Of a stretch of 64,000 nt of DNA, positions 9,961 to 23,585 are shown piece by piece. Where the stretch lies: assembly GCF_902702775.1 (NCBI RefSeq), contig NZ_LR738724.1:1860001-1924000 (forward strand). The letters are read 5' to 3'. A program made the position numbers and the translations under genes. This DNA is from Streptococcus suis (GTDB lineage: Bacteria > Bacillota > Bacilli > Lactobacillales > Streptococcaceae). How positions within the stretch are numbered: position 1 is the first letter of the stretch; every line of letters starts with the position of its first letter. The notes below the pieces were generated by a model that did not search any database, had not been told where the DNA came from, and saw nothing but the letters and a program-made list of their open reading frames with translations.

Positions 9961-10923
9961 TTAGCGATAAATTCCGTGTTCTAGATGAGCAGACCACAAA
10001 CCTGTCGCAAATGATTGTATCAAATCCGGGTCACTTAAAAAATCAACTACTGGTTGTCCGTTTAAATACCCCTGTCCCGAACAAAAGCCTGTATACTCTC
10101 GACATATCCTTATCAACGATTCTCTGATTGGCAGAAAAGTATCAGGATTTTCTTTCGGACGATTGACATCATAAGCTCCAGCTAAAAATTCTTCCTCTGT
10201 CATAGAATGCACTAATTCTCTGAGACCGCTAAAGCGACCTTCTTCATAGCCAGGTAAAGAAATATTTAATACAGGTGTTCCCAATGCTAAACTAGGAAGC
10301 GTTCCATGCAAACGAGTTGTAACAACCAATCTTGCCGACTGATATAAATATAAATAATACTTCGCCAATTTCATACGACGTTCTGTGGACATATAGATAT
10401 GCGCTACGTCTACCATCAATCGTACTACTGGCAATTTTGACTCCGACTTCATTTTTTCGTAAACTTCGTTCGATACATCTACAGCCAATATAAAGTCTTG
10501 TTTCGGAACATCCTTCTCACGTTGAAGAGTCAATGTTAAACAACCCGACCAGTAAGTTTCGACTCCTATTTTTTCAAAAAACTCCTTAGTCCCATAACTT
10601 CTCGCTCCTACCGGACCAAATTTTCGGAAGAACTCCACATTTTCTTTCGAAGAAAAAATAGGCTGAACCGGACCATCAATATACATAGAAATCAACAGAG
10701 GATGAATCTGAGGATGTTTCAAAGGAAAATTTTGTGGATGATGACTGTACCAACCATTCATAATTAGCTTTATCTCTTCGTCAGTAGAGTCGGCAATAAA
10801 ATCATGAAGATAATCACGATTCAGATAGTAGTCTACCTGTGGTAGAAAACGCTCGGCTGCAACCGACTGTATTTCATCACCAATATTTCCAGTACTATAA
10901 CATAATAAAGCAAATTTTGTCAT
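9961..10923 (-). CDS. Polysaccharide pyruvyl transferase family protein
   Basis: 320 residues. YSTGNIGDEIQSVAAERF at the N-terminus and VVTTRLHGTLPSLALGTPV near 205-225 are the hallmarks of the PS_pyruv_trans family (CsaB/WcaK type), which put ketal pyruvate on sugars; some members in SRRP clusters act as glycosyltransferases instead. The gene sits between a terminator after the upstream GT8 gene and the GT2 at 9869. Pyruvylation of an adhesin glycan would be unusual and remains an inference. Confidence 0.75.
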   Translation of the reverse strand: MTKFALLCYSTGNIGDEIQSVAAERFLPQVDYYLNRDYLHDFIADSTDEEIKLIMNGWYSHHPQNFPLKHPQIHPLLISMYIDGPVQPIFSSKENVEFFRKFGPVGARSYGTKEFFEKIGVETYWSGCLTLTLQREKDVPKQDFILAVDVSNEVYEKMKSESKLPVVRLMVDVAHIYMSTERRMKLAKYYLYLYQSARLVVTTRLHGTLPSLALGTPVLNISLPGYEEGRFSGLRELVHSMTEEEFLAGAYDVNRPKENPDTFLPIRESLIRICREYTGFCSGQGYLNGQPVVDFLSDPDLIQSFATGLWSAHLEHGIYR

Positions 10924-10998
10924 AAACCCTCTCTTTTCAAAAATTTTTCAATATTATAGCACAAGAAATATCTAAAACCAATTTATTTGACCATAAAA

Positions 10999-11029
10999 AA
11001 AGAGAGTAGGTTTTGCAACCCGTTCTCTT
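10999..11029 (-). terminator. Terminator overlapping the GT8 stop codon
   Basis: Stem AAGAGA...GGGTT / AACC...TCTCTT with a GCAA loop and a run of seven T on the minus strand. It begins within the last codons of the GT8 gene, so that gene is transcribed separately from the rest of the cluster. Confidence 0.8.
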
Positions 11030-12209
11030 AATTTTTCATTATGAATTCTGCCATTTCTTCTGCCGTATCAAAAACAGCTTCTTCAAAACCATCTGTTTTT
11101 GTCGCAGTGAATGTCAATAGAGGTTTATTTCGATCTACAAGCATTTGCAAAATATCCCTAAATTTTGAACCATGATTAATATCCAAATACATATCGCAGT
11201 TATCAATCCAACGATCCGCTGTATAGTGCATAACATGTGGATAGAGCTTAACATTTTCATAGCTTGCTAATCGCTTCAATTCTGGAACGATGTCTGTAAA
11301 CGCCATAATGTGAAAGTTACAATGTGGCAATAACTGCACCAAACTTTCGATCTGCTCCAATTTTGGAAATTCAAAAATAGTCAACAAATTCTTTTCAGCA
11401 GAAATCGTCAACTGGGAATGATGATGTAAAATATCGGCCCATTCTAGTTGCGAGTAACGCCACCAAACTTCTCTCAAACGACTCGTTGAATATGTCAACC
11501 ATGGTTTTACCGGTGAAACATAGTGAATAATCGCTGGGAGTGGATCAAGTGGAATATCAAAAATAAATTTATAGCCAAATTGCTCTAATAATTTATCTGT
11601 CCCAATTTGGAAATTGTAGGTATCTTCAAGCAGAAGATAACGATCTTTAATGACCATATTCAAGACAGATTGATCCGCTTCTGTCAAGTTTTGATGTTCT
11701 TGACTTACTACCTCCAACAGGCGTTCCATAATTTGTTCATCTTTCCAACGTCTGTTATTAATCAACAGAACTCCTGCATTGAACCTCTCTTCTAGACCAT
11801 AGCCAATCTTTGCAGCAGCAAGATAATAATCTTCAATATCTTTAGCAAATAATCCATCCAATGATCTCGTCACTACTAAGTCACTATCCAGATACAGAAC
11901 CTTGTCTTCTTCAACAAATTTCGGAATAAAGAAACGAGCATACGTCATATAATTTATATGAGGTCCATTCTTAGGCAATGTCCAACCAAGCTCCACTCCG
12001 GTACCGATAAGTTTTACATCAATTAGCTGACTTCCAGTTTCTCGCATTCGTCTTCTGATATAAATAAACCATTCTTGAGGGATGTCCTGGTTAAATAGAT
12101 AAATTTTTACATTGGCATTATGATAACAAATTGATTTAATAGTTGCCTCGATGTAGCGAATATAGCCATAATCTCCTGCCAATACAATTGCCTTTGTTTC
12201 CTTATTCAT
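11028..12209 (-). CDS. GT8-family glycosyltransferase with C-terminal accessory domain
   Basis: 393 residues. The N-terminal half is a retaining GT8 domain: EATIKSICYHNANVKIYLFN near 20-40, MTYARFFIP, the DxD metal site in KVLYLDSDLVV near 115 and DQSVLNMV near 185. The C-terminal ~130 residues (from about 265: LLTIFEFPKLEQI, CDMYLDINHGSKF, NKPLLTFTAT) look like half of a GT-B fold, an arrangement seen in accessory Sec glycosyltransferases. The ATG at 12209 was chosen because GGAG lies 6 nt upstream; a TTG start 21 nt earlier has no such site. Probably part of adhesin glycosylation. Confidence 0.8.
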   Translation of the reverse strand: MNKETKAIVLAGDYGYIRYIEATIKSICYHNANVKIYLFNQDIPQEWFIYIRRRMRETGSQLIDVKLIGTGVELGWTLPKNGPHINYMTYARFFIPKFVEEDKVLYLDSDLVVTRSLDGLFAKDIEDYYLAAAKIGYGLEERFNAGVLLINNRRWKDEQIMERLLEVVSQEHQNLTEADQSVLNMVIKDRYLLLEDTYNFQIGTDKLLEQFGYKFIFDIPLDPLPAIIHYVSPVKPWLTYSTSRLREVWWRYSQLEWADILHHHSQLTISAEKNLLTIFEFPKLEQIESLVQLLPHCNFHIMAFTDIVPELKRLASYENVKLYPHVMHYTADRWIDNCDMYLDINHGSKFRDILQMLVDRNKPLLTFTATKTDGFEEAVFDTAEEMAEFIMKN

Positions 12210-12792: not shown

Positions 12793-12997
12793 CAGCAGTC
12801 TCCTTGACATAAATTCTACCTAGATTATAGCAAATTCTATGCAGAAAGTTAAGATGAATAAATCTAAAACCATATTCCTATATCAGATATATCATTTTAA
12901 TTACTAACAGTCCAATTATAGAATATATCTAGACAGCCATTAATGATAAATACCGCATCCGCTAAAAATAAATAGAATCCATTCCCGTAGAAACCAC

Positions 12998-13031
12998 AAA
13001 AAAAGCACCCATGAGATAATCTCTTGAGCGC
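12998..13031 (-). terminator. Terminator adjoining the rpsI 3' remnant
   Basis: 27-nt imperfect hairpin (GCGCTCAAGAGAT paired with TATCTCATGGGTGC, one mismatch and several G-T pairs) ending in seven T on the minus strand. It sits 28 bp after the stop codon of the S9 C-terminal remnant, much as the rpsI terminator sits after rpsI at 23.15 kb, and is probably the terminator that once served rpsI. Confidence 0.8.
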
Positions 13032-13058
13032 CTTGAAACGTTGATATATCGCTGATAA

Positions 13059-13108
13059 TTAACGTTTTCTAAATTGACTAGCTTTACGAGCTTTCTTAAG
13101 ACCTGGTT
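13059..13108 (-). repeat. Distal attachment-site repeat: displaced 3' end of rpsI
   Basis: Matches 43 of 50 positions of the rpsI 3' end (23193-23242), same orientation, with 19 identical bases (GCTTTCTTAAGACCTGGTT) at the inner end. Read on the minus strand it encodes [19 protein letters not shown], the S9 C-terminus with one substitution, using different synonymous codons (AGT for TCA). This is the expected product of site-specific integration at the 3' end of a gene and marks the left end of the island. The 65-residue ORF over this spot is in another frame and is not a gene. Confidence 0.85.
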
Positions 13109-13377
13109 GGGACTACAAAAATCAAATATCTGCAAAAACTTATTAAACCAAGTTTTCAAATCCCATTTTCATTAAATACAAACATTTATAACCCAACCCT
13201 ACAAATAATGGATTACCATTAGATTACCAAAAATCAGTTTTTGAGCTTATGTAATTGAGAAGTGTACAAATAAATCATTACGGAAATGGCTTGTTTCGAG
13301 ATAACTTCAGGTACCAAACAAGTATGTTTTGCCATATTTATTATATTCGAAAACTTATCGAACTTTACACATCATAA
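13109..13377. other. Island end without a recognised gene
   Basis: AT-rich, with no coding region I can support. It holds a short direct repeat (GATTACCATTA then GATTACCAAAA at about 13211-13231), possibly an arm-type binding site of the lost integrase. No integrase fragment could be recognised. Confidence 0.4.
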
Positions 13378-14184
13378 TCATTTCCCAATATACTCCACAG
13401 CCATACCATTACCAAACTCTTGTCTATACAATCTTCTTGCTTCTGATTTATGCCTATTCACTATCTCCATCGTTTCACTAGAACAACTAATATCCGTGGT
13501 AGACCACTTATATCTACGCATATTATCTACAAAGCGCATTTCAAATTTTCTTTCTTTATACTGCCTACGATTTTTTAATCCTGAGAAACTTATAGCAACA
13601 CTTAGCAAAAATTCTTCAGCAATTACTCGAACCGCTTGATAAATCGGGTTTGATAACGGGGAATCTCCGTAATTGTTTGTGACTCCAAGAGAATTGCATT
13701 TCGTAAGAAGAGCAAATGACTCCTTTAGTTCCGGGTCAACATGTGCTCCACCATCATTATTAGCGACAAAAAGTATAATATCTTTTCTTGTAAAAACATT
13801 TTGTTTATCATCAAATATTATTTCATTCCACCAATCTTCAAACGTTAAATAAAATAAACGCTCTCCTTTTCCATAAAAGTCAAGATTTGGTTTATAGGTT
13901 AACTGATTATCTTTTATCTCTAAGACAAGAAGAGTCCATGTTGAAAGTAAATTTGAAGGAGTATATAAAAAACTAGATGAAAGATAGATTACATTCCGAT
14001 TTAACTGCTTGATTAAAGCTTGTGAGGATTTTGTGTGGTGTAACAAAATCCTCAGACTGCTAGCAATTCGCCTCGCTTCAGTTTCATTTCCTTCATCAAA
14101 ATAATCAATTGCACGTTTTAGGTAACTAATTTGATCATTCCAATACTCCTCAAGTTCATCGGTATTCTTCTTAATTTTTACCAT
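13378..14184 (-). CDS. Hypothetical protein of a genomic island
   Basis: 268 residues, family not recognised. The N-terminal ~65 residues are helical and charged (DELEEYWNDQISYLKRAID, RRIASSLRILLHHTKSS). The centre has FEDWWNEIIF and a striking VANNDGGAHVD near 143-153, and the C-terminus is basic. No signal peptide or membrane segment. The ribosome binding site GGGAGG sits at the end of a 10-bp tandem repeat that fills the whole upstream region, so its expression should depend on that repeat. Its place in a defence-like island suggests, but does not show, a phage-related role. Confidence 0.7.
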   Translation of the reverse strand: MVKIKKNTDELEEYWNDQISYLKRAIDYFDEGNETEARRIASSLRILLHHTKSSQALIKQLNRNVIYLSSSFLYTPSNLLSTWTLLVLEIKDNQLTYKPNLDFYGKGERLFYLTFEDWWNEIIFDDKQNVFTRKDIILFVANNDGGAHVDPELKESFALLTKCNSLGVTNNYGDSPLSNPIYQAVRVIAEEFLLSVAISFSGLKNRRQYKERKFEMRFVDNMRRYKWSTTDISCSSETMEIVNRHKSEARRLYRQEFGNGMAVEYIGK

Positions 14185-14195
14185 AGGCGCCTCCC

Positions 14196-14430
14196 TACTG
14201 TATTCTACATGTATTCTACTGTATTCTACTGTATTCTACTGTATTCTACTGTATTCTACTGTATTCTACTGTATTCTACTGTATTCTACTGTATTCTACT
14301 GTATTCTACTGTATTCTACTGTATTCTACTGTATTCTACTGTATTCTACTGTATTCTACTGTATTCTACTGTATTCTACTGTATTCTACTGTATTCTACT
14401 GTATTCTACTGTATTCTACTGTATTCTTAT
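14196..14430 (-). repeat. 10-bp tandem repeat array (unit CAGTAGAATA), 21 perfect copies
   Basis: Plus-strand unit GTATTCTACT occurs 21 times without error from 14211 to 14420, with one degenerate copy at each end. It lies between the stop codon of the AlbA_2 gene (14454) and the ribosome binding site of the unknown gene at 14184. On the minus strand every unit contains TAGAAT, one base from a -10 consensus, spaced exactly one helical turn. Copy number is probably variable. Not CRISPR: units are contiguous with no spacers. Confidence 0.95.
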
Positions 14431-14453: not shown

Positions 14454-15887
14454 TCATTTATCAACTAAAAGATAATACTGATTGCGGTCATTTTTACTTG
14501 AACCAAACCAAGTAATGATTTCTAAATCACGAAGTTTATGTAACATTTTAACAACAAATGAGCGACTTCTACCAGTCAATTCAACAGCTTTTGCCGTTGT
14601 CATTCTCTCGCCTGAATTATACATATAGTGGATAATCAGTTGCTCATCTGCTGTTAATTCACCAAAATCAGAGAACTGTTTTTCCAAACTGTCTCGTGTG
14701 CGCAGATGTCGGCTGACAATATTATTCTCAAGCGTCAGGACAACCTTATTCCCAGGTTCTGAGTATTTAGGTTCATGGAGAAAAGCAGATTCCATCTCAG
14801 AATAGATACGCTTAACACCTTCATTCATCTCACGTACCCAACCGAACTCTGTCAAGGTTCTAGCAATGCGAGGGTTTCTCGAAAAACGTTCATGCTTGAT
14901 ATTTTCAACTGTTACAATATTAGGTAATTTCCCTGGGCTATGAATCTCTAGTCGATCATCAAACATAAGGACACGAATGTGATCTCCATAGACAGAATAA
15001 TCACGGTGAGTTACGGCATTGACAACACCTTCAACCCAAGCAAATTCAGGATACTCAGGTAAAATTTGGAATTGCCCGTTGTCATCTAAATACTGAAATT
15101 CACGAAGCTGAGTACGGATAAAATCTCTAACCTTGATAATCAAAGTTGGGAGAGCATCATCAAAGGTCACTTCCTTGATAACATTAAAACTACTTCCAGT
15201 CCCCATGTCAGTACCATCAAACCGTTGAAAACGAACACGCGCTTGAGGAAAGAAAGCTGACGGATATTTACCAAAAAGCAAAATGGCTGCCTTAGTTAAT
15301 TTCCCATTGATTAGAAAACGACGAGCTTTGAGAATTTCTTCTGTAGAACGATCTGAAATATCAAAACGATTTTTAAAATCCTGAACCAGATGGTCATCAA
15401 TATCTTCCAAGGTCGCATCAGATACAATTTCATCCTCAAAGAAACGTTGTCCCTTATCATAGCTGAGCTGAGTGCGTTGCTCGTAGCTCAACTTGACCGT
15501 TTCATCACCCTGACGAAGATAAACCTCATCACTTGGTGCTGCAATCACACGATTTGACGACAATTCCACAGAGATAACTAAAATAAGATCTTCTTCCCCC
15601 TTATGATTAACCGCAGGGATTTCTTCAAAAGATAGATCCAAAGGAGTCTCACGCATCTCACGATCAATCTTTTTGAAATCTTCAATCGGATAAGCTTTCC
15701 CATCTTTGAAACCTGTAATAATATTACCCTGTTTCTCATCTTCAATACCAATAACTAACTGACCTCCGTCCGCATTTGCAAAAGCAATCAGGTGTTTGAG
15801 AAGTTCAGAAGGTTTCTTTCTAGCTGATTTTCTATCTAGGTATTGGTTTTCTGGAGAAAATTGATAGTGAGATAAGTTTTGATTCAT
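14454..15887 (-). CDS. AlbA_2 (Schlafen-like) / GHKL-type ATP-binding protein
   Basis: 477 residues. The N-terminal AlbA_2 domain (about 10-130: YLDRKSARKKPSELLKHLIA, FANADGGQLVIGIED) is a nucleic-acid-binding fold shared with Schlafens. A GHKL ATPase-like domain follows (about 285-400: WVEGVVNAVTHRDYS, LEIHSPGKLPNIV, NPRIARTLTEFGWVREMNEGVKR), then a C-terminal winged helix (TTAKAVELTGRSRSFVVKMLHKL). The family is usually annotated as putative transcriptional regulator and is common in defence islands. ATG 15887 follows AAGGAG by 6 nt, which rules out the ATG 18 nt upstream. It lies 44 bp after the XRE-ImmA gene, probably in the same operon. Confidence 0.85.
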   Translation of the reverse strand: MNQNLSHYQFSPENQYLDRKSARKKPSELLKHLIAFANADGGQLVIGIEDEKQGNIITGFKDGKAYPIEDFKKIDREMRETPLDLSFEEIPAVNHKGEEDLILVISVELSSNRVIAAPSDEVYLRQGDETVKLSYEQRTQLSYDKGQRFFEDEIVSDATLEDIDDHLVQDFKNRFDISDRSTEEILKARRFLINGKLTKAAILLFGKYPSAFFPQARVRFQRFDGTDMGTGSSFNVIKEVTFDDALPTLIIKVRDFIRTQLREFQYLDDNGQFQILPEYPEFAWVEGVVNAVTHRDYSVYGDHIRVLMFDDRLEIHSPGKLPNIVTVENIKHERFSRNPRIARTLTEFGWVREMNEGVKRIYSEMESAFLHEPKYSEPGNKVVLTLENNIVSRHLRTRDSLEKQFSDFGELTADEQLIIHYMYNSGERMTTAKAVELTGRSRSFVVKMLHKLRDLEIITWFGSSKNDRNQYYLLVDK

Positions 15888-15931
15888 ATAGTTCTCCTTA
15901 AACATATAAAAAATAATTAAAAATTCATGAT

Positions 15932-17089
15932 TTACAAAGTCCTAGATTTTAAATGTACAATATTATTTCTCTCTTGTAACAACGTCTCCTTTGGAATGTC
16001 CATAAGCTCTGAAAGTATCTCTACTGGAAGAGGATAGCCGTACTTAAGATTAAATCGCTGGACTATAGATTGATTTTCAAATAAGCCCGCATCCGTCAGT
16101 AATTTATATGCCTGTTTAGCAAGGATTGGTCGTGATACTGGAATACTTGTATCCTCTGGCTCCTCTCTTCGCCATCCTCTGGCACTCATTCTTTTTTGTA
16201 GACGAGTATATTGTTCCGAATTTAACAAACCCAAATCCTTTGCACGATAAATCATACTGGCTATAGATACATTCCACTTAGACTTCAATTTCAAATAATA
16301 TACGAGGTCTTCTTCATGTCCTTTTAGATCTTCGGAAAAAGCAGAGGCTGGTAATAAAAAACTCGAAGCAAATCTATTAGCTTCTTGCTCCATTTGTCTA
16401 TATTCAACATTGGAAAGCTCCTGTGGATATACTGTTCTAGCATGCAAAACCCAATGCCCTAACTCATGAGCCAAGCTAAATTGTTGCCTGAAAAAATTAT
16501 TATTATCTTGGTCGATTAAAATACAATAATATCTCTCAGAATCTGTTCCCATTTTCAATTCAACAAAACTTCCAAAAGCATCCACTTTCTCAGACTTTGA
16601 ATTAATTATTGCAATATGGAAGCCATTTGTTTCTAGTAACCTGAGAACACTGGAAATTGGGTTATCACCCAATCCCCAACTCTTTCTTATCTGATCTGCA
16701 ACTTCCTCTGGTGAAGCATTTTCATGACTTTCAAATTCTGCTAATTTCGGGAAATCAACATAATCTTCAAAAAAATTCGCCAAGAGAGCCAGTGCTTTTT
16801 TTAGCATCTCACTAGACTTCTTCTCAGTTTGTGAGGATGTTAACTTACTCCTATAAAAAGTTCCTAAATCAGTAGTTATAAATTTATCTTTTGTTTGATA
16901 GAAGGACAGCGGAAATTTCAGTTCAAAAATTATTTTTTGCAATACCTCAGAACTCGGCTTTGATAAATTCTTTTCGTATTTAGAAATCATCTGTTTAGAA
17001 ACTCCAACGTTCTCCGCCAATTGGCTAATGGAATAATGTCTAAAATATCTCGATTCCCTAAGTCTATCTCCATTAAATTCTTGAGCCAT
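15932..17089 (-). CDS. XRE-family regulator with ImmA/IrrE metallopeptidase domain
   Basis: 385 residues. An N-terminal helix-turn-helix (about 8-62: YSISQLAENVGVSKQMISKYE) is followed by a gluzincin-like domain with the zinc motif HELGHW near 207 and a downstream EQEANRFASSFLLP, as in ImmA/IrrE anti-repressor proteases. Proteins of this build sense a signal and cleave or release a repressor, or act as toxin-antitoxin partners. The start overlaps the stop of the preceding gene by 1 nt (TAATG), so the two are translationally coupled. The substrate may be its partner or the protein's own DNA-binding domain. Confidence 0.85.
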   Translation of the reverse strand: MAQEFNGDRLRESRYFRHYSISQLAENVGVSKQMISKYEKNLSKPSSEVLQKIIFELKFPLSFYQTKDKFITTDLGTFYRSKLTSSQTEKKSSEMLKKALALLANFFEDYVDFPKLAEFESHENASPEEVADQIRKSWGLGDNPISSVLRLLETNGFHIAIINSKSEKVDAFGSFVELKMGTDSERYYCILIDQDNNNFFRQQFSLAHELGHWVLHARTVYPQELSNVEYRQMEQEANRFASSFLLPASAFSEDLKGHEEDLVYYLKLKSKWNVSIASMIYRAKDLGLLNSEQYTRLQKRMSARGWRREEPEDTSIPVSRPILAKQAYKLLTDAGLFENQSIVQRFNLKYGYPLPVEILSELMDIPKETLLQERNNIVHLKSRTL

Positions 17090-17799
17090 TATAACGTTCC
17101 TTTTACTATTGGTTTTAATGTAACGAGTTGAGGCTCATCTACTAAATCATTCACCTGTTCATCACGTATAGCCTCAGTTCTAATTATACCAGCTGAACTT
17201 GGAAGCAAGTGAGAAATATCTACTGAACCAACTGATAAAAATTGTGGAGTGTAGTCTTCTAACGAAGCACTCACAGCTTCTTGACCTACATAATCAACAA
17301 TCAAGAATCTAATCTTAGTCACATGTTCACAATACTCACCAAGCATCCTAATCAGATCAGCTTCTTTTCTTTTCACTTCAGAGCTATCAGCATCAAAAAG
17401 AGAAAGCTGTTCCACTTCTTGTTCAGGATAAAGCCCCTCATTTTTCAAAAGTAAACTTAAGGTATAATGAGTAGAGGTTCCATTTTTGAAATATCGATTA
17501 CGAATTGTCCTAAAATTATTTTTGGAGAAGAAGGCTATTAGTTCACCTGTCTCAATATTCAATATAGGGTCAAATTGCCAAATCCCCCTCTTAATATGCA
17601 AAACTTTCCAAATACTAGTATTTTCAAATAATCCTTGAAGCATATCCGCTCTTCGTGCCCATGTAGCCTGATAAATTCCATTTTGACTAGTCTCTGAGAT
17701 AGCAACTTTAAAATCCTGCTCCAGATGCCTAGTTGTAAAACTCATCGCTTCCAAACACTTGATGATTACTTCCCTTTCAATATTATAACTATGTTTCAT
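17089..17799 (-). CDS. Hypothetical protein coupled to the XRE-ImmA gene
   Basis: 236 residues, family not confidently recognised. No signal peptide or membrane segment; a central basic stretch (FFSKNNFRTIRNRYFKNG) is followed by an acidic LSLFDADSSEV. It resembles proteins found next to ImmA/IrrE genes that bind or are processed by the peptidase, but this is inference. First gene of the operon 17799-14454; strong GAGGTG ribosome binding site and its own promoter upstream. Confidence 0.7.
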   Translation of the reverse strand: MKHSYNIEREVIIKCLEAMSFTTRHLEQDFKVAISETSQNGIYQATWARRADMLQGLFENTSIWKVLHIKRGIWQFDPILNIETGELIAFFSKNNFRTIRNRYFKNGTSTHYTLSLLLKNEGLYPEQEVEQLSLFDADSSEVKRKEADLIRMLGEYCEHVTKIRFLIVDYVGQEAVSASLEDYTPQFLSVGSVDISHLLPSSAGIIRTEAIRDEQVNDLVDEPQLVTLKPIVKGTL

Positions 17800-17909: not shown

Positions 17910-20900
17910 CTACCCCATCTCCTTCACTTTACTTTCAATAAATTCAATTTCATCATCCGAAAGACCATATTTTCGATAGAGTTGTGCGTTTATCTCGGAT
18001 ATTGATTGTGACCAATCAATATCCGAGTTAGATGTAAAGTCCTGGAGGGGGACAAAGCGATAAGTTTTTCTAGTTCCATTTTGATTCGCTTTCGCAACGC
18101 TAATTAAGAATCTCACAAATCTAGTGGTTAAGTATTTTCCTAAATTCTTAGACGAATCTAATGACAAATTTAAACTAGCTCCAATAACAAGATAAGTTTC
18201 CGTACAAATTTCCTTAGGACTCGCAATGATAGTGTTCAAATTGTCATCTGATAAATCAGTTCCAATGTTATTTGCAAATGCAGTTAAAACTTTGTAGTTC
18301 TCAATAATACTAGTATTTTTTGAAATTAGCGAAGAATCAATATACCCTACATTACCTTTACTGGCATATACTCTTAAATCATTTGCACTTGATGACTCAA
18401 CTGATAGTTTATATGTCGTTGGTATCCCAAAAGGGTTACGCTCAGATATATACTTATAAAGCATTCTATTACTATTCTCATACTCTCCTACAATCATTTG
18501 CTTTTTTAGCAGTTTATCAAGGAGTTTAAAAGAACTAGACTCCGAAATAAAAATATCTAATTCTCTCAATCTATACGGTCTAAACCCAGTATCAAAAAGC
18601 TTGCCATTCTTGAATGTATTTACTAAAATATCAGATTTTTTGTTATCAAAAGAGCTATCCCAAAGAAAAAAATTCACCCCACCTCTTAAGTTGACATTAC
18701 TGAAAACATCGTTCGGAGTCAAGTAGTTATTAAATACTTTAAAATGCCTATCTTCTAATAAGCGATTTCTAAATTCATCTAAGCCTTTCCCTCCTAAAAA
18801 CCATACACTTGGCGTTATCAATGTTATATAGCGAGGGGATAACGAAATAGCTAAATCGATAAATTTATCATATAAAGGCTTGGCGCTGCCATTCCCCGAA
18901 GAATTATCACTTTCCTGATACGGAGGATTTCCTATCACTACATCAAATTTCACCTTGTTAAATACCTCCTCGACTAGTTTTTTACCTTGTTCAATATCTG
19001 TTTTAAGCGTTTCTGTCAGTTTCTCAATGTAAGTTACATTAGTCTTATACTTCCGATAGCCTGTCAGTGTACGTTCAGTGATGGTTTTTGCCATTGGTGT
19101 TTTGGCAATAGCATAGATGTTATTCGCTAAAATCTCCTGATAGACTTGGTCAGCTTCAAAACGATTATCATCATTTTCTGCCACTCGTTGATAATACAGA
19201 CTAATGGCACTATGAAGGGGATAGAGACCTGTCTTCGAGTTGATGTCTAAAATTTTAGTTTCTTTCTGATAAATAGATGAGGCAATCTCATTGTCTACCC
19301 AGTGAAGATTTGACGTCGCACCATCTGTCACCGACTCAAAGTTATCATCATAGAAATTCAAACCGCCTACCGACTTAGATACTTGTAGATTTACCACGCG
19401 CCACGGTGTCAGTACCGTTTCCTTGTCAGGATTTTTAAAGGTGCTAAACAGCTCTGCAATCTGCTCTGCCCGCTCGATGAAGTCCAGGTCCTCAAATGAT
19501 TTGGCACGCTGACGGATAATACGACCCGCTTCGATAAAGACCTCAGCATCATAATACTTGGTAATCTCACTAAACATTCCCTTGGTGAAACCTTTTGGCA
19601 TGAACTCTTTCCACGATTCATCATCCACCTGCTTGATAAAGTCCTGAATGGTGATGTCTTTTGATAAATCGACCGCCATACCGTAAATCATCATCGGAAT
19701 ACGGATAGATACCCCACGTAAAATAGAGATCATATTTTTCCGCTGTTTCTTAGCTTCTTTTTGTTTTTCGATAACTTCCAGCTCTTCTGGAGTCCGTTTA
19801 ACTTTGGGTTTCTTCTTAGCCCGTTCAGCTTGCTCGTGTTCTTCATCTGTCAAACCATTTTCGTTAATCACAACTTTCTTAGGTGTTTTTTGACTCTGCG
19901 TCTTACCAACGATAGCATTGAGTTTGGTAAACATACTTGCATCATCAGCAGTTAAAGTTAGAAGATTATCATTATAGAGACTGTCGTCTTCAAAACCTGA
20001 CCGCACTGCCTTTTCAGCATAAACTTTCTTGAGCTGTGTCAACATTCTATCGACATCGTAAGTCTTCATACCATGCTCAGAAGCCCCTAAAATTGGCATA
20101 AAGTTTAACAGACGAGCCATAGCTTGCTTTTGTGCTTTCGTATTTTTCTTCCCTACACCTGAGTTAATCTGAGCACTCTCCGCCATGACAGTCAAGGCTC
20201 TATCAGGAGCAAAATCAAAGACATAGCAATTGGTCTTCATTCCCAATTTCTCATGTGAGAAAGGCGTCTGGGCACGAAAGGCAGCTTGCAGGTAGTTCAT
20301 GGCACTATTGGTATTTGACAAGAACATGACCGCTGTCCACTCTGGGATATTGACGCCTGTTGTCAACTTACGAACAGTCAGGGTAATGGTTTTTGTCTGA
20401 GATGGGTCTTGACCAATAGCAGAGCGAACTTTCTCTATATCCGCATCGTTAGCAATTCCGTCATCGCTACTTGAGCCTCGAACCACGTTAACAATTTTGT
20501 ATTCTTTCCCGAAAATCGGATGTTCTTTCAGCAAGTCCTCAAAGGCATTAGCTTCCTTAACACCTGGCATGAGCCAAAGTGTATGCCGCAACTCCTCACG
20601 ATAATTCTTCGTTGAGAAAGGGTAATTAGTACTGCTATCTGGATGCGTAATATTGTCTAAGAACTGACAAACCTCTTGCCGATAAACAAGTTTGCCATCC
20701 TCAGACACACGGAAGAACTCTCTGAAGTTGAACGATTTGCTCTCATCGGAAAAACGTTCCTTGTGTTTCATTTCAAAAGTGTACATCGATACTTTTGGTA
20801 ACGTTTCATAAGGGTTTGGCTCATTTGGACGTTCTAATTCCCACTTCTTCTTAGCCTGTTGTTCCATGACATAGTCCCAAGTATAGACTTGCTCCTCATC

Positions 20901-22292
20901 AAATTGATCCAAAAGATTAAATGGCGTCCCAGATAGTTCTAGTATTCTTGTATGCTCTTTGACCAATTCCTTCATAACGGTGTCACTGAGCTCGGTTTGC
21001 GTTCCCTCGTGCGCCTCATCAATGATGATCAAATCCCAATCCACATCCGCAAAATCTTTCAGGTTGGTTTGTCCACCATTGTATCGAAGGAGTTGGATGG
21101 AGGCAAAATAGATAAATGGTTTCTCACCTCGCTTCAGGTTTTCAAGCGTTTCTCCTTTATTGACAGAGCCAAAGTCGTAGCCTGCCTCACTCATCTTCAT
21201 TTTCTTGAAATCATCAAACCAAGAATCTGCCACAACAGGGCGATGTGTCATGATAAGAACTTTTTGAAAGGCTTCATTCTTGACTAATTGTAAGGACGTC
21301 AAGGTCTTACCAAAACGCATTTTGGCATTCCAAAGCATCTTATCTTTTTTCTTAAAGACTTTTTGCGTCTGCTCGACTGCGGCTTCTTGTTCTGGACGAA
21401 GGGTGATGACTGGTTCCTCAATAAATGATTCTTTGGCAGTAATATTTAAATAATTTCTACCTTCTTTAACCGCTTTAATGGCAGCCTTAGCTGTCTCTAA
21501 ATCTGTCTTGAACCACTCTGTTCCTTCCAGTTGATCAGCCCGCTTAATCCCTGAACGCTTCAAGACATTATGCACATCATAATCATGAAACCATGACTTG
21601 GTTGCCTTTTTATAAGCAAGCTCTACCCAGCCAAGCGTGTAAGGCAAACCAGATGTTTTCATATACTGGTTGATACGTTTTGGGGCAACTGTTCTCAAAA
21701 AGTCACTATTGGGTGACCAATCCGTCTCAATGTCATCCGAAGAAACCGTCCCCTCACCGATTTTTTGCGTGCCTTCAAAAGCGTTAAATAGCCCACTGTC
21801 ATTATTAACCGTTTGAATATAGATAAACTTCCGCTCAGCCGTGGTGTACATTTCTTGTGCTCGTGGTTCTAAAAACTGACCGATTGCACCTGCTTTAATA
21901 TCTGGTTCAATATATGTCAGCATGACCCAAGCTAGGATTTCAAAGACTTGTTTCAACGATTTTAAAGCATTTTCTTTCGTCGCATCTTCTGGATTGAGGA
22001 CATGAGCAGAATTATTCCCCTTGCCCTTGATGTCATAGAAATGATCAATAATAGTCTTATTATCAATAAGGCCTTTTATCTCACTTAGCACATCGTTAAA
22101 AGTCGCACGTTCACGAATATCTAGGTATTCTCTATCAGCAACCAACCTTGCTGTATTTTCAGCAACTTTCCTCACTTTTGTTAGCGTGCCTTCATAATCC
22201 CCGTGCGTATAATTTTCTTCAGCCATATTTATAGTTCTAAAAAGCTCGGCTGTATCTATATCAATTGCCAAAAATTCGAAATTTGAAATCAT
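17910..22292 (-). CDS. Restriction-type fusion: DUF4145, possible GIY-YIG nuclease, SF2 helicase, adenine methyltransferase catalytic half
   Basis: 1460 residues. Order: DUF4145-like region (about 10-130, ending KGNNSAHVL); a segment at about 155-280 with IYIQTV...KIGEG...DVHNVL...GTEWFKTD resembling T5orf172/MUG113 GIY-YIG nucleases; an SF2 translocase (about 300-720) with Walker A AKMRFGKT, IIIDEAHE, LSGTPF and LQAAFRAQ; a Lys-rich linker; then a methyltransferase region with the N6-adenine motif NPPY (VVIGNPPYQESD) and a C-terminal part likely to hold target recognition. No SAM-binding motif I is visible here; it lies in the partner gene 4 bp upstream. The architecture recalls Type ISP/IIL restriction enzymes with a different nuclease and a split methyltransferase. 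Nuclease assignment is an inference. Confidence 0.8.
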   Translation of the reverse strand: MISNFEFLAIDIDTAELFRTINMAEENYTHGDYEGTLTKVRKVAENTARLVADREYLDIRERATFNDVLSEIKGLIDNKTIIDHFYDIKGKGNNSAHVLNPEDATKENALKSLKQVFEILAWVMLTYIEPDIKAGAIGQFLEPRAQEMYTTAERKFIYIQTVNNDSGLFNAFEGTQKIGEGTVSSDDIETDWSPNSDFLRTVAPKRINQYMKTSGLPYTLGWVELAYKKATKSWFHDYDVHNVLKRSGIKRADQLEGTEWFKTDLETAKAAIKAVKEGRNYLNITAKESFIEEPVITLRPEQEAAVEQTQKVFKKKDKMLWNAKMRFGKTLTSLQLVKNEAFQKVLIMTHRPVVADSWFDDFKKMKMSEAGYDFGSVNKGETLENLKRGEKPFIYFASIQLLRYNGGQTNLKDFADVDWDLIIIDEAHEGTQTELSDTVMKELVKEHTRILELSGTPFNLLDQFDEEQVYTWDYVMEQQAKKKWELERPNEPNPYETLPKVSMYTFEMKHKERFSDESKSFNFREFFRVSEDGKLVYRQEVCQFLDNITHPDSSTNYPFSTKNYREELRHTLWLMPGVKEANAFEDLLKEHPIFGKEYKIVNVVRGSSSDDGIANDADIEKVRSAIGQDPSQTKTITLTVRKLTTGVNIPEWTAVMFLSNTNSAMNYLQAAFRAQTPFSHEKLGMKTNCYVFDFAPDRALTVMAESAQINSGVGKKNTKAQKQAMARLLNFMPILGASEHGMKTYDVDRMLTQLKKVYAEKAVRSGFEDDSLYNDNLLTLTADDASMFTKLNAIVGKTQSQKTPKKVVINENGLTDEEHEQAERAKKKPKVKRTPEELEVIEKQKEAKKQRKNMISILRGVSIRIPMMIYGMAVDLSKDITIQDFIKQVDDESWKEFMPKGFTKGMFSEITKYYDAEVFIEAGRIIRQRAKSFEDLDFIERAEQIAELFSTFKNPDKETVLTPWRVVNLQVSKSVGGLNFYDDNFESVTDGATSNLHWVDNEIASSIYQKETKILDINSKTGLYPLHSAISLYYQRVAENDDNRFEADQVYQEILANNIYAIAKTPMAKTITERTLTGYRKYKTNVTYIEKLTETLKTDIEQGKKLVEEVFNKVKFDVVIGNPPYQESDNSSGNGSAKPLYDKFIDLAISLSPRYITLITPSVWFLGGKGLDEFRNRLLEDRHFKVFNNYLTPNDVFSNVNLRGGVNFFLWDSSFDNKKSDILVNTFKNGKLFDTGFRPYRLRELDIFISESSSFKLLDKLLKKQMIVGEYENSNRMLYKYISERNPFGIPTTYKLSVESSSANDLRVYASKGNVGYIDSSLISKNTSIIENYKVLTAFANNIGTDLSDDNLNTIIASPKEICTETYLVIGASLNLSLDSSKNLGKYLTTRFVRFLISVAKANQNGTRKTYRFVPLQDFTSNSDIDWSQSISEINAQLYRKYGLSDDEIEFIESKVKEMG

Positions 22293-22295
22293 AGC

Positions 22296-22991
22296 CTAAT
22301 CTCCTAGCAAATACACTTTCTGAATACTTATCTCTTCTATTGCATCTGTTTTTTCAACAACTTCATCTTCTATTTTAAATTCATCATCGATATCAAAAAA
22401 GCTCAGTTGTCCTTCTACGACTGCCCTATCATCTTCAACCTCTTTACCTAAAAGTTCTGATAATGCAAAAGGAATTTTTCTCACCAAACTAGGATGTCCT
22501 TTAACCATTTGCCATTCATTAAACCTGATAGGCTCCCCTGTGACTGGGTGCTGCTGAGTCAAGGTATTTCCTCTCACAATATTTTTATGAATAAGATAGT
22601 GAGCTGATTTGTAGATATCACTCTTACTACTCAGTTTCACACTAAAAGTTCTTTCATACCAATCTAGGTAATAAAGAAACATGCGCGATCGTGCCACTTC
22701 TAGGTTATCTTCTAAAAACTCTATGCCATAAATAGACGAGAGAGCAACTAAAGACTTTGTTTTCCAATTTCTTTTGTCATACTGTCTGACCACTGCCTTT
22801 AGTTTTCTCTCCAAAATAGCTTGCAAAAAATTGCCATCACCTGCAGATGGCTCTAAAAAGGTCTTATATACACTTTCACAAGCTTCTTTCACACCCGGAG
22901 TATCCAGCATTTTCTGAACCATCCAGGCAGGTGTAAAGACTTCACCATGTTTTTGAACACGTTGTTTTGATTTGATTAAATTCTCTTCCAA
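22296..22991 (-). CDS. SAM-binding half of a split N6-adenine methyltransferase
   Basis: About 230 residues. GEVFTP (motif X), LEPSAGDGNFL (motif I, SAM binding), YGIEFLEDNLEVARSRM (motif II) and VRGNTL are present, but the chain ends without the catalytic NPPY motif, which is found in the gene immediately downstream. The two probably form one enzyme. Start: a minus-strand TATAAT with upstream TG at 23026-23031 lies inside the longest frame (ATG at 23042), and AAGGAG precedes a TTG codon at 22991 by 6 nt. I therefore prefer TTG 22991; both ATG options lack a ribosome binding site. Confidence 0.8.
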   Translation of the reverse strand: MEENLIKSKQRVQKHGEVFTPAWMVQKMLDTPGVKEACESVYKTFLEPSAGDGNFLQAILERKLKAVVRQYDKRNWKTKSLVALSSIYGIEFLEDNLEVARSRMFLYYLDWYERTFSVKLSSKSDIYKSAHYLIHKNIVRGNTLTQQHPVTGEPIRFNEWQMVKGHPSLVRKIPFALSELLGKEVEDDRAVVEGQLSFFDIDDEFKIEDEVVEKTDAIEEISIQKVYLLGD

Positions 22992-23025
22992 AGCCAACTC
23001 CTTGAAAACGTTTATCTTGACTATC

Positions 23026-23035
23026 ATTATACCAT
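23026..23035 (-). promoter_or_regulatory. Extended -10 promoter of the split-methyltransferase operon
   Basis: TGGTATAAT on the minus strand, about 30 bp before the TTG 22991 start; no good -35 box, as is usual for extended -10 promoters. Inferred. Confidence 0.5.
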
Positions 23036-23138
23036 TTTCCAATGAACACTACTAGATTTCATCAGCGCTTTATCCAAAAAACGTCAAATAAAATTGGTAC
23101 ACGATTTTTAACAAATGCTTTTCAAAAATCACGAAAAA

Positions 23139-23192: not shown

Positions 23193-23585
23193 TTAACGTT
23201 TTGAGAATTGTGAAGCTTTACGTGCTTTCTTAAGACCTGGTTTCTTACGTTCAACCATACGAGCGTCACGTGTAAGAAGGCCTGCGCGTTTCAATGAATC
23301 GCGGAAGTCTGGGTCTACTTGAAGCAATGCACGCGCGATACCGTGACGGATCGCACCTGATTGACCACCGTAACCACCACCGTTCACGTTAACGAAAACG
23401 TCGTATGAACCTTGTGTTGAAGTTACTGCGAATGGTTGGTTGATAACCAAACGAAGGTCAGCGTGTGGGATGTACTCTTCTACATCTTTTTTGTTTACTG
23501 TGATTTTACCAGTACCTGGGACCAAACGTACGCGTGCAACCGCGTTTTTACGACGACCAGTACCTGTGTATTGTGCTTGTGCCAT
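23193..23585 (-). CDS. rpsI: 30S ribosomal protein S9
   Basis: 130 residues, full length for bacterial S9: [25 protein letters not shown] at the start and the basic tail ending KASQFSKR that reaches the ribosomal P-site region. It follows rplM by 19 bp and is cotranscribed with it. Its last 50 bases are repeated at 13059-13108, so the reading frame has been restored after an island integrated into the 3' end; the product is intact. Confidence 0.97.

Follow-up and report, generated by a model that had tools for sequence, protein, structure and literature searches.

Two predicted methyltransferase front halves for one catalytic half in a putative two-protein, ATP-dependent restriction-modification system of Streptococcus suis and its relatives

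The stretch of DNA analyzed here, a window of 64,000 nucleotides of Streptococcus suis (contig NZ_LR738724.1, positions 1,860,001 to 1,924,000, from a genome of 2,189,829 bases), contains two adjacent genes that raise the question of how the parts of an adenine methyltransferase are distributed between two proteins and whether these must come together for modification, and perhaps for restriction. Both are open reading frames on the minus strand, downstream of rplM and rpsI, and the gap between them is 3 bp, not the 4 bp given in an earlier sequence-only reading of the locus. Our answer, which we hold to be moderately probable, is that they encode a two-subunit ATP-dependent restriction-modification system in which adenine methylation would need both proteins; that the two must assemble for modification is likely from the comparisons described below. 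The small chain is predicted to be a canonical methyltransferase front half (N2) without motif IV, and the large chain to comprise a GIY-YIG-like domain, a superfamily 2 (SF2) motor, a non-canonical second front half (N1), and the sole catalytic half together with target recognition (C). The surprising feature of this predicted layout is that a single catalytic half is provided with two front halves. The two genes are as follows.

22296..23042, minus strand: small gene (N2), 248 amino acids from TTG; front half of a gamma-class methyltransferase, its homologues forming the N-terminal part of one-chain relatives
17910..22292, minus strand: large gene (R-N1-C), 1460 amino acids

Homologues of the small protein are only 243 and 231 amino acids long, compared with 248 here, so the start of the small gene is likely to be later than the TTG.

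The relationship between the two proteins is seen most clearly in the gene arrangements of relatives. When 98 genomes, including that of the window, were searched, 16 had matches, and 15 regions were fetched; 4 genomes had a full-length large protein and 1 had a weak helicase match alone. At 12 places there is an R-type protein of about 1100 amino acids that matches the GIY-YIG segment through the helicase (one genome, G055, has both kinds). Eight of these 12 loci encode one chain of about 630 amino acids, in which a small-like half (BLAST detects it in 3, a profile in all 8) is followed by a half resembling residues 1105-1459 of the large protein; at two of them (L025 and L033) the genes for this chain and for R are not immediate neighbors. 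In the other 4 (L026, L027, L029, and L030), R is flanked by two genes, the second of which begins near motif IV. In the window and in relatives with a full-length large protein, R and the second half form one chain. Three arrangements are thus represented: an N2-C chain with a helicase protein ending in N1; separate genes for N2, R-N1, and C; and N2 with R-N1-C, as in the window. The eight fusions and four free C genes are strong evidence that the small protein and the C-terminal part of the large protein are halves of one methyltransferase, which bears out what the sequence-only reading had proposed.

The pairing of the genes is itself conserved. Among the best 80 of at least 566 loci in genome_contigs, the small protein was found by profile beside the large gene in 72, a recurrence that argues for a pairing beyond chance, and the 8 loci that lack it (L050, L068, L078, L079, L084, L085, L102, and L114) all border on the end of a contig, on one side or both. 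The distance between the genes was measurable in 68 loci and lies between −35 and 74 bp in 63; outlying values are 860 and 976 bp (L082 and L116) and −5197, −4966, and −110 bp, the negative ones being read as overlaps that result from an over-long predicted start. Close relatives occur in Streptococcus, among 72,556 plasmid records there are 90 with a match to the large protein (extending over at least 80% of its length in 48), and 7987 of 7999 scored candidates match its C-terminal part with E-values of 0.001 or better. The system had been called atypical, but the family is widespread and this is no one-off.

Several individual loci have features of their own. Four (L063, L074, L105, and L110) have the small gene and no large open reading frame of >1200 amino acids, and their large gene may be broken or cut. 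On a Limosilactobacillus reuteri plasmid (L038), a gene for a type IV-like nuclease lies between the large and small genes (10440-11369; PADLOC mREase_IV, E-value 5e-24). The small protein on a 9.5-kb contig labeled Proteus sp. (L059) scores like those of Lactobacillales, and this copy is possibly a contamination.

The division of labor proposed above depends on which motifs reside in which chain. Two are found in the small protein, where GEVFTP is located at residue 33 and PSAGDG at residue 65.

22929..22943, minus strand: motif X, EVFTP, small residues 34-38; EVFTP in 90 of 91 readable N2 rows and EVLTP in 1
22824..22856, minus strand: motif I, LEPSAGDGNFL, small residues 63-73; E64 and G68 invariant in the 92 readable rows

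Small proteins come in two flavors, type a with GEVFTP (that of the window) and a longer type b with AEVFTP, which are related (hhalign probability 99.2) but differ at position 70, where Gly is present in 60 of 60 type a rows versus 3 of 32 type b rows, with Ala in 29 of the latter. Position 108 is acidic in the readable rows (91 Glu, 1 Asp). The predicted cofactor motifs of the window's N2 are canonical for a methyltransferase. A sequence search of solved structures gave no match to the small protein. The small protein has no NPPY (motif IV), and the front halves of the R-type and small proteins that were inspected also end without this motif, which is found instead in C.

17913..18962, minus strand: C, catalytic half and target recognition, large residues 1111-1460 (homology, alignment, trees, and AlphaFold)
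18918..18929, minus strand: motif IV, NPPY, large residues 1122-1125; invariant in an alignment of 83 rows (the window protein plus 82 homologues, the set used for all large-protein conservation counts)

The earlier assignment of NPPY to the large protein only is upheld, since it is present at residue 1122 there and absent from the small protein, and Pfam Eco57I matches large residues 1057-1197 with an E-value of 2.8e-30. The motif order X, I, and IV, with NPPY as motif IV, and the matching fold described below are those of a gamma-class N6-adenine methyltransferase; the canonical set is found only across the two chains, X and I being altered within the large chain.

The statement that motifs X and I occur in the small gene only is, however, incorrect. 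The large protein has its own motif-X-like and motif-I-like sequences in a segment, N1, that precedes C.

19023..19757, minus strand: N1, HsdM-like helical part and second methyltransferase front half, large residues 846-1090 (AlphaFold, structural matches, and alignment)
19389..19433, minus strand: motif-X-like NPDKETVLTPWRVVN, large residues 954-968; LTP in 83 of 83 rows, aligned to FTP of the R-type relatives
19215..19253, minus strand: motif-I-like ILDINSKTGLYPL, large residues 1014-1026; K1020 and G1022 in 83 of 83 rows

In NPDKETVLTPWRVVN, 12 of the 15 positions are constant in all 83 rows and the other 3 in 79 or 82, and motif X reads VLTP throughout (83 of 83). In motif I, the first glycine is replaced by lysine, with Glu or Asp at position 1016, and the acid of motif II is replaced by Ala or Cys at 1063, followed by Lys at 1064 in 80 of 83 rows. 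In the 12 R-type proteins, N1 has F/YTP, K-S-G, and no acid. In the large protein, the motifs predicted for N1 are non-canonical yet conserved, with VLTP for X, K-T-G for I, and no acid in II. The expectation that the large protein would lack a complete motif I is borne out only in part: the motif is altered, with Lys for the first Gly, but a motif-I-like sequence and a non-canonical front half are present. A large protein devoid of cofactor motifs is ruled out by VLTP in 83 of 83 rows and the altered motif I, and a scan for [FY]TP in N1 residues 975-1014, positive in 2 of 83 rows, does not signify loss of motif X, since VLTP lies further upstream in all 83. The position of motif X is derived from its conservation and from the alignment of R-type with fused-type N1, in which the larger domain has an hhalign probability of 96.1 and a shorter piece matches weakly (32.4, E-value 0.00047). 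R-type N1 matches N2 of type a (95.3) but not of type b (6.4), and fused-type N1 matches neither (2.2 and 0.5). In columns 950-1090 of N1, 33 of 138 positions are at least 97% one residue, compared with 118 of 520 in the helicase and 2 of 198 in residues 1171-1395; as this conservation resembles that of the helicase and far exceeds that of 1171-1395, N1 is not decaying.

Predicted structures extend these relationships. AlphaFold yields one complete and confident methyltransferase fold for N1-C of the large protein and a complete fold for N2-C of a fused relative, indicating that two front halves fit one catalytic half. The N1-C model has structural matches to HsdM, CamA, BREX PglX, and LlaBIII; the methyltransferase part matches structures 5ffj and 4xqk (LlaGI and LlaBIII), and HsdM structures, 2okc among them, are matched by N1-C and N2-C alike. 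The complementary interface that had been expected between the two proteins is plausible; N1 too is predicted to pack on C. It is conceivable that N1-C is a complete methyltransferase alone, with an unusual cofactor pocket, and that the small protein is accessory or regulatory, with a role, for instance, in allosteric regulation or in bringing the enzyme to the replication fork. The full fold with its structural matches and the strong conservation of motifs X, I, and II of N1 over the 83 rows are consistent with this possibility, as is M.TaqI, in which motif I is altered as well. We nevertheless consider it rather unlikely, because all 83 rows have lysine for the first glycine of motif I and lack the acid of motif II, because the small protein retains the cofactor motifs and is present at all of the 80 loci except the 8 at contig ends, and because 8 of the 12 R-type relatives join N2, not N1, to C.

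The same models raise the possibility that C alternates between partners, modifying DNA together with N2 and cofactor and restricting it together with N1 and the motor linked to N1; a single recognition half would then have two states. Wherever parts are fused or joined in one chain, a single C has one of its front halves in cis and the other in trans, N1-C and N2-C are predicted to form the same methyltransferase fold, and the inspected front halves, as noted above, end without motif IV. It should be recognized, though, that AlphaFold may complete the fold with whichever front half is in the chain, and that the proposal is based on models of single chains; we regard it as improbable. In an elaboration that we view with similar doubt, C bound to N1 would detect unmethylated sites without cofactor and trigger the translocase and nuclease, with front-half exchange as a switch between self-marking and restriction and with N2 tied to the sliding clamp so that the methylase follows the fork. 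If C did alternate, swapping the C cassette would change both specificities together.

Such swapping of C is suggested by the trees. In a midpoint-rooted FastTree tree of the C half (93 rows), all gene arrangements are intermixed, although some inner supports are as low as 0.19 and the variable part is poorly aligned, whereas in the helicase tree (95 rows) the fused proteins are apart from the R-type with supports of 0.98 and 1.0. Between L026, where C is a free half, and L021, identity is 71% in C and 39% in the helicase. In S. suis strain 2187 (L077), the large protein has 94-99% identity to that of the window up to residue 1110, but 39% in residues 1171-1395. C halves thus appear from these comparisons to have been exchanged between arrangements, and specificity looks like a swapped cassette.

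Whether the system can also restrict DNA depends on the remainder of the large protein.

21843..22292, minus strand: DUF4145-like N-terminal part, large residues 1-150 (HsdR model PRK11448; the matches of distant relatives begin at 144-177)
21423..21842, minus strand: GIY-YIG-like segment, large residues 151-290; Y158, K177-I/V-G179, R206, D237, H241, and E259-W260 conserved
19833..21422, minus strand: SF2 helicase/translocase, large residues 291-820; ResIII, DEAH at 425

Both the DUF4145 assignment and the SF2 translocase are supported. Residues 3-151 match positions 4-145 of PRK11448, whose E-value against the whole protein is 5e-21 with a score well under the model cut-off, and PF13643, which we take to be DUF4145, is precomputed on one homologue (P0090); Pfam ResIII matches residues 296-458 with an E-value of 7e-16. 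The proposed T5orf172/MUG113 segment has some support at the level of the family but is weak in the window protein, where the two Pfam models match residues 204-275 with E-values of 0.056 and 0.046, below cut-offs; for relatives of the R part, T5orf172 is listed at E-values up to 0.1 in 10 of 12 (best 1.9e-7; 0.058 for L026). The large protein has no Pfam match to a PD-(D/E)xK/Mrr nuclease, although a missing match is weak evidence of absence, and a sequence search of solved structures gave three weak matches to it, the best (E-value 0.022) a tyrosine kinase. GIY-YIG enzymes usually have Glu at the catalytic position that corresponds to residue 237, where Asp is found in 83 of 83 rows. This substitution and the weak Pfam score would fit a modification-only or non-cutting system in which the GIY-YIG-like domain is no nuclease and any defense would be by ATP-driven blocking, a mode found in BREX. 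Such a system, which would be compatible with the other readings, seems doubtful to us in view of a site that is apparently constrained: there is no exception to Y158, K177, and G179 in the 82 rows readable at these positions or to Y210, D237, and E259 in all 83, and Arg is present at 206 in 82 of 83 (His at 241 is found in 80 of 83).

The two-subunit system that we favor would operate as follows. The small and large proteins would form one complex in which S-adenosylmethionine is bound by N2, while C contributes the NPPY site and the DNA target, so that N6-methyladenine (m6A) is produced in host DNA. On unmethylated foreign DNA, C would recognize its site, the SF2 motor would consume ATP, and the GIY-YIG domain would cut. 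N1 probably anchors C to the motor, keeping C in place while N2 is absent. A further element, in the N2 tail or, in one-chain forms, the linker to C, is a clamp-binding-like peptide that may direct methylation to newly replicated DNA.

22395..22409, minus strand: QLSFF clamp-binding-like peptide, small tail residues 212-216, with F rather than L at position 4 in the window

In PMC12309361, the consensus of sliding-clamp binders is given as QL[S/D]LF or QxxLF. The strict QL[SD]LF-type peptide is present in 43 of 92 N2 loci and a looser form in 53; in 120 close homologues of the small protein, many of them near-identical, the strict form is found in 50 and the looser in 117, with QLSFF in 59. 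Among 493 other open reading frames of 200-400 amino acids, the figures are 4 and 23, and the strict pattern is in none of 83 large proteins. In 5 inspected type b proteins from distant phyla, Gln is missing but LF is kept. The peptide may equally well be a docking peptide for another subunit instead of a clamp binder.

Among known systems, Type ISP enzymes have all activities in one polypeptide, with an N-terminal Mrr/PD-(D/E)xK nuclease, an SF2 translocase, a gamma-class methyltransferase, and target recognition. The large protein resembles LlaGI and LlaBIII in having the translocase, an HsdM-like methyltransferase, and target recognition in a long chain, but has a GIY-YIG-like segment in place of a matched PD-(D/E)xK/Mrr nuclease, and a separate second front half, the small protein, is part of the system, which is thus not a single polypeptide. 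Type IIG enzymes restrict without an ATP-driven helicase/translocase. The best PADLOC match of the large protein is the Type IIG model PDLC03626 (E-value 1.2e-129 for the whole protein, strongest at 1051-1459), and the C-terminal parts are alike, but the clear ResIII match with its DEAH at 425 and the conserved partner gene distinguish it. CamA, an adenine methyltransferase, is one chain with no motor or nuclease, unlike the present two-protein, motor-bearing system. The split cytosine methyltransferase AquI shares the distribution of methyltransferase halves over two genes, but is a 5-methylcytosine enzyme with no motor and no duplicate front half. With Type I enzymes there is similarity of the N terminus to HsdR (PRK11448) and of N1-C and N2-C to HsdM structures, but here target recognition is in the large chain and the methyltransferase halves are on different genes; no separate HsdS specificity gene was found among the six window proteins scanned with profiles, the only ones scanned. 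A putative HsdR with a GIY-YIG inserted near position 800 is described in PMC1564403; it likewise places GIY-YIG in an ATP-dependent restriction subunit, but here the domain precedes the helicase and the methyltransferase halves are in the same operon. An Enterococcus faecium "type IIG" system, with m6A at GGAGG in 2094 of 2996 sites according to PMC12323599, might be a relative. In PMC12707154 the term "sliding clamp" does not occur, and "split" is used once, in another sense. No title or opening of an abstract in the literature searched names the split system; as coverage was partial (few subscription journals, no REBASE), this is weak evidence of novelty.

As to the setting of the operon, rpsI was found at 7 other loci, 0.15 to about 6.5 kb ahead of the system, one of them in Ligilactobacillus. 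The stretch after rpsI (position 23193 in the window; L077, L042, L021, L058, L045, L043, and L090), that Ligilactobacillus locus included, seems to be a recurrent landing site. Integration with duplication of the rpsI end is ruled out, as the 24-base end has no second copy in the window even when as many as 3 mismatches are allowed. Directly downstream of the restriction operon (15932-17799) are adjacent RmrA/RmrT-like genes, encoding a helix-turn-helix protein with an ImmA/IrrE peptidase (RmrA-like) and a DUF5986 protein (RmrT-like); the profile matches have E-values of 9e-121 and 2.1e-26. A pair of this type is termed RosmerTA in PMC10440598, and the present pair is a candidate toxin-antitoxin system of that type. 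An AlbA_2/HATPase gene is further downstream (14454-15905); in 7 of the fetched loci a homologue, in one case a weak match (E-value 2.2e-6), comes after the large gene with the same orientation, and in a Proteiniphilum metagenome-assembled genome (L104) the homologue (12976-14430) is 13 bp past the large gene. Positions 14195-14427 of the window consist of 23.2 copies of the 10-base unit CTACTGTATT (99% matches), just upstream of the start of a minus-strand open reading frame (13378-14184) that has no BLAST match (E-value 1e-8) among the open reading frames of the fetched loci; change in repeat copy number could alter its expression. Scans for promoters (30 found, 31.9 expected) and terminators (7 found, 6.2 expected) were at chance level.

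Taken as a whole, the comparisons indicate a real and widespread two-protein ATP-dependent system, whose activity, cofactor site, cleavage, and clamp binding we infer from sequence and models. The family goes under the label of a generic restriction enzyme, yet PADLOC places relatives of the two halves under two separate Type II methyltransferase models, PDLC03390 and PDLC03375, and annotation tools may consequently misread the system. If our interpretation is correct, it would represent a type of ATP-dependent restriction-modification in which methylation depends on a separately encoded second methyltransferase half. The natural series of split and fused forms provides material for studying the assembly of such enzymes, and a clamp-binding tail would give a testable answer to the question of how restriction-modification keeps pace with replication.

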